DNA from: Elusimicrobia bacterium HGW-Elusimicrobia-1
GTDB taxonomy: Bacteria; Elusimicrobiota; Endomicrobiia; PHAN01
Assembly: GCA_002841695.1 (NCBI GenBank)
Contig: PHAN01000011.1
Location: 1-64,000, forward strand
Reading direction: 5' to 3'
DNA length: 64,000 nt
This document shows positions 19,836 to 63,755 of the stretch, piece after piece. The notes beneath the pieces were generated by a model, which saw only the letters and a program-made list of their open reading frames with translations, had not been told where the DNA came from and did no database searches. Every line of letters begins with the position of its first letter. Position 1 is the first letter of the stretch. A program made the translations under genes and the position numbers.

Positions 19836-19945
19836 TCAGCGACAAAGGCAAACCACGCCGAAAGGGTGGGACGCAAAGCCACGGGACTAAATCACGACGC
19901 AATGAAAGCGCCGTGACATTTGTTCGCCGGGTTGCCGAAAGACAT
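19836..19945 (+). ncRNA. GEMM-I (cyclic-di-GMP-I type) riboswitch
   Basis: The conserved core is present in order: GGCAAACC (19847), a hairpin closed by a GAAA-type loop (CGCCGAAAGGGTG), GGGACGCAAAGCC (19868-19880), a second helix ACGGGACTAAATC to GTGACATTTGTTCGCC, and GGGTTGCCGAAAGAC near the 3' end. This is the GEMM-I architecture that binds cyclic di-GMP (some members bind 3',3'-cGAMP). It is followed by an intrinsic terminator, so it should control transcription of the beta-barrel gene downstream. Confidence 0.88.
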
Positions 19946-61122: not shown

Positions 61123-61151
61123 TTGACTTTTTCCGGTTATTTGTGTATATG
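61123..61151 (+). promoter_or_regulatory. Promoter of the tandem riboswitch transcript
   Basis: TTGACT at 61123-61128 and TATATG at 61146-61151, spacer 17. The first aptamer starts at about 61158, at or right after the transcription start. Confidence 0.6.
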
Positions 61152-61157
61152 TATGAC

Positions 61158-61290
61158 GCAGTCGAAAAGGCAAACCCCGGGAAACCGGGGGACGCAAAGC
61201 TACGGAGCTAAAGATAGGGGGCTATCAAACCGACGAGCGAAAGCGAGTCGGATCCCGAAAAATCGGGATGCTGGCCGGGCTGCCGAAGTG
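61158..61290 (+). ncRNA. GEMM-I riboswitch, tandem copy 1
   Basis: GGCAAACCCCGGGAAACCGG, then GGGGACGCAAAGCTACGGAG at 61189 onward, a second helix (CCGACGAGCGAAAGCGAGTC, CCCGAAAAATCGGGATGC) and CCGGGCTGCCGAAG at the 3' end: the complete GEMM-I core. Stretch 61201-61220 (TACGGAGCTAAAGATAGGGG) is also complementary to 61391-61408 downstream, giving the basis for a switch. Confidence 0.9.
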
Positions 61291-61390
61291 GTGATATCAG
61301 GTTCCAGCAGTTGCTCGAAGAAGTTGTAAAGTCGGAGCCGTTGCTCGAAGGTGTGTTTCATCAGGGCTTCGGCGGCAGATTCACCAAGTC

Positions 61391-61434
61391 CCCCTATCTT
61401 TAGCTACCGAGTCGCAAGGTTCGGTAGCTTTTTC
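61391..61434 (+). terminator. Expression platform and terminator of tandem copy 1
   Basis: AGCTACCGA (61402-61410) pairs with TCGGTAGCT (61421-61429), followed by TTTTTC: an intrinsic terminator. Its 5' arm, with CCCCTATCTTTAG just before it, can instead pair with the aptamer strand CTAAAGATAGGGG (about 61208-61220), a mutually exclusive fold. Confidence 0.75.
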
Positions 61435-61464
61435 ATTTGTACCTTATCGTTTCAATTGTCCGAT

Positions 61465-61612
61465 AAACGGCAAACCCCGGGAAACCGGGGGACGCAAAGC
61501 CGTTCCGCTCCGCGCGATGTTCCGCGGATCGGGACTCACCGACGATACGTTGGTGAACGGGCCTTCCTCCCCGCAGGATAATGCGGGGAAAAGGCGGCTG
61601 GGTTACCGAAGG
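61465..61612 (+). ncRNA. GEMM-I riboswitch, tandem copy 2
   Basis: Same core: CGGCAAACCCCGGGAAACCG, then GGGGACGCAAAGCCGTTCCG, enlarged second helix with hairpins (TCCGCGCGATGTTCCGCGGA, CTCCCCGCAGGATAATGCGG) and the closing GCTGGGTTACCGAAGG. A 31-base stretch including the first hairpin is identical to copy 1. GAAGG at the 3' end lies about six bases before the start codon at 61618, so this copy may act on translation. Confidence 0.88.
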
Positions 61613-61617
61613 CAATT

Positions 61618-62094
61618 ATGAGAAACATAGAAAAAAGACACTATCGTCTTTCCTCGCGTATTTCAGGCGCGCGCGCGTATATATATAATACGCTCGCGGA
61701 TGTTTGCTTTCTTGCCTGGTGCGCGGGGCTTGTTTTTTTAATGACCGTCGCCGAGGCAAACCAGTTTGCCCGCGCCGCAGTCGTCGCTGTAACGGTCGCT
61801 CCGGCCGGTGTGTCGCTGTTCAACTATCCCAACCCCTTCGATTCCCGCAAAACCGCAACCCGCATAATCATCAACAGACCCGCAGCTATCGTGGCTTCTT
61901 CGGCTTTCTCGGTTACGATTTATGACCTATTCGGCCTGCCTGTCAGAAGCTACGGCCGCGTGGAACGCGACGAAGTTGTCTGGGACGGCCGCGACGACGA
62001 TGGCCGTTACGTGGCCAGGGGCGGATATATTTGCGTGGTGTCGACGGCGGAAGGCCGCATAGCGGCTTTAAGAAAAATAGGCGTGATACATTAA
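61618..62094 (+). CDS. Riboswitch-controlled protein with FlgD-like C-terminal domain
   Basis: 158 residues. A hydrophobic segment (VCFLAWCAGLVFLMTVAEAN) serves as signal peptide or anchor. The rest is almost only a FlgD-like domain: SLFNYPNPFDSRKTATRIII, VTIYDLFGLPVRSY, DEVVWDGRDDDGRYVARGGY and ICVVSTAEGRIAALRKIGVI. It differs from the 15 kb and 5 kb domains in having ARGGYICVV where others have ASGVYIYY. Its start codon is six bases beyond the second GEMM-I aptamer, so expression is presumably controlled by cyclic di-GMP. The PorV-TPR gene follows 38 bases later. Role may be a minimal surface anchor or a fusion partner. Confidence 0.8.
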   Translation: MRNIEKRHYRLSSRISGARAYIYNTLADVCFLAWCAGLVFLMTVAEANQFARAAVVAVTVAPAGVSLFNYPNPFDSRKTATRIIINRPAAIVASSAFSVTIYDLFGLPVRSYGRVERDEVVWDGRDDDGRYVARGGYICVVSTAEGRIAALRKIGVIH

Positions 62095-62132: not shown

Positions 62133-63755
62133 ATGGGAAAAATAAAAATTAAATTATTGACAAAAATCGCCGGCAAAGTCGCAAAAACTTTGTTTGTGCC
62201 GCTTTTTGTCTTTTTCTATCCCCTATCCCCTATCCCCTGTCTTTTCGCCGCCGCCACCGGAGGTCAGCCGGGACAGTTTGTCGCATGGGGCGCCGGCGCG
62301 CGGTCGCTGGGCATGGGCAAGGCGTTTTTTGCCGTGGCCGACGATGCTTCGGCTACCTACTGGAACCCCGCGGCCATGACGCAACTTGACCGCAAAGAGA
62401 TAATGGCTCTTCACGCCGCGTTGTTCGCCGAGACCAGTTTCAACTTTTTGTCCTACGTGCACCCGACGGCCAAATCCGGAGTTTTCGGCGGTAACATTAC
62501 GCGGCTTCATTCGGGCGGCTTCGAGAAAATAGCCATAACCTTCGACGCCGCGCAGGAAGACATAATCAAAATCGAAAATCTTGGAACCTTCGACGATTCG
62601 CGTATGGCGTTTACGCTGGCTTACGGCAAAAAAATACAGGAAAATCTCTCCATAGGTTTGGCGGGCAAATACATAAGCCACTCTCTGGACACTTCGGTTT
62701 CGGGGGCATTTACCACCGACCTTACGATGTTTCTTGAAGGCCTAAACCATACGGTTCCTGGAATCAAACTGGGCTTTGGCGTCAATAATTTAATATCGAG
62801 TTCCTTTGGCGATACCGACGACATAATGCCTCTGGTATTTCGCATGGGCGCATCCCACAAGTTCCTCAAGGACAAACTTCTTCTTGCCTTCGACATTGAT
62901 AAATCCATGGAAGCCAATCTCGGATGGCATATCGGCACGGAATATTATCTTATGAATTACCTGGCTATGCGTCTTGGTTTCGAGGGGGAAAGCGGAATCC
63001 GCGAGACGACGGCGGGTTTCGGCTTCAAATACAAAGATTACGGACTCGACTACGCCTTTGCGTTTCATGAACTGGGACTCTCTCAGAGGGTGTCGGGCTC
63101 ATGGAGAATCGGCGATTCCGTAAGCGTAGGACGTTTCGCCGCCGTGGCTCGTTTGATGAAAGAAGCCGTGGAGTCCTACAGAAAAGGCGATTTGCTTCTG
63201 GCGTACAACCGGCTTGAGCGTCTGCTCGATATTGACCCCGCCAACAAGGACGCGCAGAATATGTCCCGCCGCCTGCAGGTCATAATAGGCCATATGGACA
63301 CGGTAGTGGGCGATACCGAAGACGCCGTGGCGTCCAGAAAGGGCATAGTGGCTTATCTTGAAGGCGACGATTCCGGCGCCATAAATTCTTTCAGATACGC
63401 GTATTATAAAAAACCCGAAAATGTAAAACTTCTGGGACTCCTCAACAGAATAGAAAAAGAACTCGGCTTGCCCCCCACCGAGTCATACAAAGAAAGCATT
63501 GCCGGCTTTACCATAGTCGATCAGAAAGTGTTTGATTCGCGCCAGGCGATTATAGACGGCAAATACGACAAAGCGCTTATGCGCGCGCAGGAAATACTTA
63601 ATCTTGAGCCCAACCACGTGACCGCTCTTGAAATAATGGGTTCGGCGTTCTTCATGATGGATCAGCCCGATAAAGCCAAAGAAGTATGGATGAAAGTGCT
63701 TGAAGTCGACCCGACCAATAAGGTCGTGCCGCAGTTCCTCAACCAGCTCAGATAA
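62133..63755 (+). CDS. PorV/PorQ-type barrel fused to a C-terminal TPR domain
   Basis: 540 residues. A long N-terminus with a hydrophobic run (KTLFVPLFVFFYPLSPIPCL) coded partly by a CCCCTATCCCCTATC microsatellite precedes GGQPGQFVAWGAGARSLGMG, ATYWNPAAMTQL and barrel strands (YGLDYAFAFHELGLSQRVSG). From about residue 340 helical TPR repeats follow (RKGDLLLAYNRLERLLDIDP, DDSGAINSFRYAYYKKPENV, YDKALMRAQEILNLEPNHVT, DKAKEVWMKVLEVDPTNKVV). Most PorV proteins lack TPRs, so this fusion is unusual and may give the barrel a periplasmic interaction arm. It is in one transcript with the FlgD-domain protein and the riboswitches. A small signal-peptide protein begins 52 bases later. Confidence 0.85.
   Translation: MGKIKIKLLTKIAGKVAKTLFVPLFVFFYPLSPIPCLFAAATGGQPGQFVAWGAGARSLGMGKAFFAVADDASATYWNPAAMTQLDRKEIMALHAALFAETSFNFLSYVHPTAKSGVFGGNITRLHSGGFEKIAITFDAAQEDIIKIENLGTFDDSRMAFTLAYGKKIQENLSIGLAGKYISHSLDTSVSGAFTTDLTMFLEGLNHTVPGIKLGFGVNNLISSSFGDTDDIMPLVFRMGASHKFLKDKLLLAFDIDKSMEANLGWHIGTEYYLMNYLAMRLGFEGESGIRETTAGFGFKYKDYGLDYAFAFHELGLSQRVSGSWRIGDSVSVGRFAAVARLMKEAVESYRKGDLLLAYNRLERLLDIDPANKDAQNMSRRLQVIIGHMDTVVGDTEDAVASRKGIVAYLEGDDSGAINSFRYAYYKKPENVKLLGLLNRIEKELGLPPTESYKESIAGFTIVDQKVFDSRQAIIDGKYDKALMRAQEILNLEPNHVTALEIMGSAFFMMDQPDKAKEVWMKVLEVDPTNKVVPQFLNQLR

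Follow-up and report, generated by a model that had tools for sequence, protein, structure and literature searches.

Two tandem c-di-GMP-I aptamers with different predicted expression platforms precede a FliF-FliG operon in an Elusimicrobiota bacterium

Two riboswitch aptamers of the c-di-GMP-I (GEMM-I) class lie in series in the leader of an operon of the uncultured Elusimicrobia bacterium HGW-Elusimicrobia-1 (class Endomicrobiia), which raises the question whether one of them gates transcription and the other one translation of the same genes. The window, i.e., the whole stretch of DNA analyzed, comprises 64,000 nucleotides, and the features discussed here are listed in Table 1. An Infernal search (cmscan) of Rfam bears out that two such aptamers, each with a different expression platform, stand in tandem, as a previous sequence-only reading had claimed: R1 matches RF01051 with 67.9 bits and R2 with 43 bits (E 4e-5), both above the gathering score of 35, and the matches were found again when cmscan was run on the small region alone. 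The specificity bases G20, A47, and C92, in the numbering of Vc2, were read off the cmscan alignments of both aptamers. R1 combines its GAAA loop with a CUAAAG receptor, while R2 shares the GAAA loop but reads CUUCC where the receptor is expected; devoid of the usual CUAA tetraloop-receptor sequence, R2 may bind its ligand weakly. Its low Rfam score is due to a two-hairpin insertion in P3. Five c-di-GMP-I aptamers were detected in the genome (2.06 Mb, 25 contigs), three of them within the window. The third one, at 19838-19940, precedes the gene of a secreted-type protein (313 aa; start around 20066) and is nearly identical to a copy at G000:C5:777-879.

Table 1. Features of the tandem leader and of the genes behind it (positions in the window).
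Feature	Positions	Strand	Remarks
Putative sigma-70-type promoter	61126-61154, approximate	+	TTGACT, 17 nt, TATATG; read from sequence
R1 c-di-GMP-I aptamer	61160-61288	+	cmscan; G20, A47, C92 in alignment
R1 P2 helix	61175-61180/61185-61190	+	GAAA loop; cmscan
R1 P3 helix	61198-61208/61270-61281	+	two extra hairpins in P3 loop
A strand (antiterminator half; P3 5' strand and P3b)	61203-61221	+	CGGAGCUAAAGAUAGGGGG; kept at 8 loci
B strand (other antiterminator half)	61390-61409	+	CCCCCUAUCUUUAGCUACCG; 8 nt shared with terminator 5' arm
R1 intrinsic terminator	61402-61433	+	stem AGCUACCGAG/GUUCGGUAGCU 61402-61429, then U tract
R2 P1 5' strand (anti-Shine-Dalgarno strand)	61454-61460	+	AAUUGUC; pairs with GGCAAUU
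R2 c-di-GMP-I aptamer, two-hairpin insertion in P3	61459-61610	+	cmscan; kept in sister species G001
Two-hairpin insertion in R2 P3 5' strand	61502-61556	+	between basal AGCC and distal ACGGGCC
Shine-Dalgarno site and R2 P1 3' strand	61608-61617	+	GAAGG 61608-61612; GGCAAUU 61611-61617; sequence
FlgD_ig protein, 158 aa, secreted-type, first operon gene	61618-62094	+	weak PF13860, E 9e-5, below curated cut-off
PorV/UPF0164-like outer-membrane barrel, 540 aa, C-terminal TPRs	62133-63755	+	
FliF C-terminal/FliG/TPR fusion, 618 aa	63780-64000	+	continues past window (L057:3781-5637)

A putative promoter precedes R1, and its string TTGACT...TGTATATGTATGACGCAG is kept in the sister species G001, the sole genome of the same genus (PorV protein 91% identical), although a consensus promoter scan gave no score for it. 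Transcription is expected to start at about 61156-61160. R1 is followed by an intrinsic terminator, the stem of which was picked up independently by a scan (12 pairs, 6 GC) and is likewise kept in the sister species. The B strand overlaps the 5' arm of this terminator and is complementary to the A strand about 170 nt away. The earlier reading had seen an aptamer strand compete with the terminator by pairing 61208-61220 with 61391-61403; these bases do pair, but the duplex extends over 61203-61221 and 61390-61409, with 19 bp (16 continuous, one bulged A, and 3 more), and the competing strand has to be amended to the P3 5' strand plus the P3b hairpin. None of 200 aptamer shuffles paired as well with the terminator flank (z -6.2). 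The predicted energy of the apo form is -125 kcal/mol with the antiterminator vs. -111 kcal/mol with aptamer and terminator. Since the duplex takes bases of the P3 stem as well as the terminator 5' arm, the bound aptamer and the antiterminator would be mutually exclusive, and since the antiterminator is energetically favored without ligand, only ligand should favor termination. By this folding model, R1 should act as a transcriptional OFF switch under c-di-GMP. The segment at 61289-61389, which separates R1 from the B strand, is highly conserved in both species of the genus; it holds a CGGAGCC/GGCUUCG stem and a repeated GUUGCUCGAAG, neither of which is needed by the model.

The same arrangement, referred to as platform 1, recurs in four Endomicrobiia families, with a total of 8 loci (the first members of 6 tandems and 2 single copies). 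The P3 5' strand and P3b share the consensus CGG(A/G)GCUAA(A/G)G(A/G)UAGGGG(G), and the complement stands just 5' of a CUACCG...CGGUAG-UUUU terminator that begins 36-114 nt behind the aptamer, with spacers that are otherwise unalike. The antiterminator duplexes have predicted energies of -29 to -44 kcal/mol (z -2.9 to -8.1) and beat nearly all shuffles. In the alignment of the two strands, 148 of 150 cells are standard pairs, and the changes comprise one compensatory A-U to G-C exchange, four G.U pairs, one co-deletion (G4/C4), and two mismatches in one sequence; compensatory evidence is thin, with this one clear event, because the A strand is nearly invariant. A search for the motif across 341 genomes of the phylum gave matches outside the four families in unrelated sequence only; those at L091-L096 and L103, in other families of the phylum, were rejected on inspection as due to chance.

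No terminator was found between R2 and the ATG at 61618. The 3' end of R2 coincides with the likely ribosome-binding site, as had been claimed: the conserved CCGAAG of the aptamer merges into the Shine-Dalgarno sequence GAAGG, 5 nt before the ATG, and P1 covers this sequence. The sister species has an identical P1 helix (AAUUGUC/GGCAAUU), and its tandem agrees closely in spacing, promoter string, antiterminator, terminator, and Shine-Dalgarno site. Where other copies of the class have no terminator, P1 again covers GAAGG but is built from different sequences (GUACC/GGUAU; UACC/GGUA; UUUCCUUC/GAAGGAA), which amounts to covariation between loci. From its sequence, R2 is predicted to be a translational OFF switch. 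P1 is predicted by folding to be stable even without ligand, so the dynamic range of the switch is possibly small. The pair has the anatomy of a bi-mechanism tandem, in which R1 has its own intrinsic terminator, and R2 is terminator-less and extends into the ribosome site.

The elements of the leader are all present, conserved, and paired, and from them we infer ligand binding, direction, kinetics, and coupling of the tandem. When c-di-GMP is scarce, R1 would leave its P3 5' strand free to pair with the B strand and to sequester the terminator 5' arm, allowing read-through, and P1 of R2 would be open, leaving GAAGG accessible to ribosomes. At high c-di-GMP, R1 would fold first and retain its P3 5' strand, so that the terminator would form and transcription would end. 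In transcripts that extend beyond the R1 terminator, c-di-GMP-bound R2 would shut P1 over the Shine-Dalgarno site and block translation of FlgD_ig and, via operon coupling, of its neighbors. Since one ligand would serve both aptamers, the expected outcome is coherent double repression; the two steps of the earlier proposal are retained, its two-input logic is not. The proposed gating of transcription and then of translation agrees with the anatomy and with the comparisons (platform 1 in four families; P1/Shine-Dalgarno pairing kept or re-created). We consider it fairly probable that this tandem of c-di-GMP-I riboswitches is of the bi-mechanism type and works as a coherent double OFF switch.

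In tandems of other families, an AACCGGA...UCCGGUUUUU-type terminator is located downstream of the second aptamer, and its 5' side complements the GGUUACCGAAG end of the aptamer. Judged by the visible GGUUACC/GGUAACC complementarity only, R2 thus appears to end in a terminator in these families, where a duplex test of this second platform gave no clear signal (z -2.0 to 0.3); the translational second stage therefore looks genus-specific. Both members of those tandems would act on transcription, as expected if the value of the tandem were a steeper, pseudo-cooperative dose response and the translational platform of R2 were incidental, an explanation applied to most c-di-GMP-I doublets in PMC9481103. 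However, in both species of the genus of the window, R2 is without a terminator and ends on the ribosome site; we regard the pseudo-cooperative explanation as possible but doubtful here.

The two-hairpin insertion of R2 is also found in five other Endomicrobiia copies, L055 (G000 C7), L039, L073, L048, and L034, and a broad search returned it in Endomicrobiia only, two further pattern matches (L135, L136) aside. The aptamers that carry it, which are poorly scored by RF01051, possibly represent an undescribed structural variant. Alternatively, only R1 may regulate, while R2 is degenerating or structural and its strong P1 sets a constant low translation rate, which would fit the score of only 43 bits, the non-canonical receptor, the large insertion, and the folding of P1 without ligand in silico. 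This is unlikely, as the sister species keeps the R2 core, P1, the Shine-Dalgarno site, and the insertion with compensatory changes (ACG/CGU to AUG/CAU in an insertion hairpin; CCGGGAAACCGG to CCGCGAAAGCGG in P2), and copies whose receptor is standard (G000 C7, G042, G024) have the inserted architecture as well.

With regard to the direction of R1, 13 pairs of the long helix between the A and B strands are located in the loop of P3, so that their formation would not strictly require P3 to open, and the connecting loops, judged from the coordinates, seem long enough for a pseudoknot in which the helix and the bound aptamer coexist; R1 would then be an ON switch. Yet the helix runs into the P3 stem (CGGAGC) and the terminator arm at all 8 loci, which makes sense only as mutual exclusion; with the antiterminator occupying the same P3 bases, the ON switch was rejected as highly improbable.

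The base at position 20 indicates the ligand specificity of such aptamers, and Hypr enzymes are recognized by a signature residue. R1 and R2 have G at position 20, hence not the A20 that is the mark of cGAMP (GEMM-Ib) aptamers. Six GGDEF matches were found in the genome, and the four full-length domains all have the c-di-GMP-type GHxxGD motif and are devoid of the Hypr serine that is the cGAMP signature. The "cyclic dinucleotide" of the sequence-only reading can thus be narrowed: by their specificity bases both pockets are canonical for c-di-GMP, and on these bases and the GGDEF motifs cGAMP was rejected as an unlikely ligand. Sensing of cGAMP or of some other variant dinucleotide is barely credible, for although RF03167 (c-di-GMP-I-GGC; 60.7 bits for R1) is the best-scoring family for R1 and the copy at 19838, both have A at position 47 (GACGCA) where the model consensus has G (GACGCG), so the assignment of R1 to RF03167 does not indicate the variant, and G20 and the GGDEF proteins also argue against it.

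The two aptamers share an identical start, given earlier as 31 bases, which measures 32 nt (61169-61200 and 61469-61500, exactly 300 bp apart). In four of the eight tandems (R1/R2 of the window, G001, G049 C40, and G038 C10), both members of the pair have the same P2 module, which differs from species to species (permutation p about 0.001), with CCGGGAAACCGG in both copies here vs. CCGCGAAAGCGG in both copies of the sister species. The identical start is best read as gene conversion between the tandem copies and not as recent duplication, because the platforms of R1 and R2 are old and different. In several aptamers (G049 C40 and C17, G024 C6 182 kb, and the second aptamers of G058 C31 and G038 C10), a hairpin directly before GGCAAAC replaces the P1 5' strand, and these may be without P1. 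A group I intron (74.6 bits) was observed about 250 nt upstream of a tandem c-di-GMP-I pair at L041:3033-3265 (G038:C11); no tRNA was found at this locus.

The tandem is indeed located ahead of a FlgD-domain gene and a PorV-TPR gene, but "surface proteins" is too narrow a description of what follows, as the operon continues into a FliF-FliG fusion (PF01706, E 2e-25; PF14841, E 2e-14; PF08345, E 6e-5) and into two giant coiled-coil-like proteins of 1546 and 1047 aa without a Pfam match. Adjacent orthologues of PorV and FliF-FliG are found 3' of c-di-GMP-I tandems in G001, G049, G024, G038, and G058, and 3' of a single c-di-GMP-I switch in G002, G007, G010, G014, and UBA5214. A protein search alone yielded four close loci, and a c-di-GMP-I aptamer was present upstream in 3/3 of those with upstream sequence (L074, L076, L077), the fourth (L075) ending at a contig edge and standing outside this count. 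Flagellin and FlhA are absent from the genome, which encodes three MotA/ExbB proteins. The operon may thus encode a non-flagellar motor, possibly rotary or gliding, and a motor or motility apparatus is a likelier target of the leader than surface proteins. Nothing relevant on FliG of Elusimicrobiota or on c-di-GMP control of such an operon was found in the literature.

Tandems as such are well known for this class: Sherlock et al. (2022, PMC9481103) count 347 c-di-GMP-I doublets and 12 triplets, which together with the Bc3-5 triplet (PMC4759541) resemble R1/R2 in aptamer class, ligand, serial layout, and separate platforms. Bc3-5, however, is an ON system with terminators only, in which P1 and part of P3 are in competition with the terminator (PMC4759541), whereas R1 and R2 would use different switching helices (the P3 5' strand and P1) at different levels, both as predicted OFF switches. 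Bi-mechanism tandems are known as SAM-II/SAM-V pairs and mixed SAM-II doublets (PMC9481103), which have a terminator first, a ribosome site second, and one ligand, as in R1/R2, but differ in ligand and aptamers. Cd1 of Clostridioides difficile (PMC9262584) is, like R1, a transcriptional OFF switch with mutually exclusive antiterminator and ligand-binding aptamer, and it targets motility genes; its antiterminator joins the aptamer-stabilizing strand A with downstream T and H strands, while that of R1 sequesters the P3b hairpin together with the P3 5' strand. The Bc1 leader (PMC11218506) is a c-di-GMP-I leader with a dual effect on transcription and translation, as proposed here, but it has one aptamer and incoherent effects in contrast to the two aptamers and the predicted coherent repression of R1/R2.

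If our reading is true, the leader would be a c-di-GMP-I bi-mechanism tandem, of which none was found in the literature searched (by their own account, the authors of PMC9481103 did not evaluate all tandems), and it would contain a GEMM-I platform whose antiterminator captures the P3 5' strand and not P1 or the 3' strand. We tentatively propose that a conserved Endomicrobiia c-di-GMP leader, which switches by the P3 5' strand and to which one genus adds a translational switch, turns off a non-flagellar FliF-FliG motor operon at two levels. In this case, Elusimicrobiota would have a motility machine, not described so far, that is halted by c-di-GMP. The leader is kept before a FliF-FliG/PorV operon in the absence of flagellin and FlhA, and it makes a connection of c-di-GMP with a putative envelope-spanning motor testable in a phylum with hardly any cultured members.
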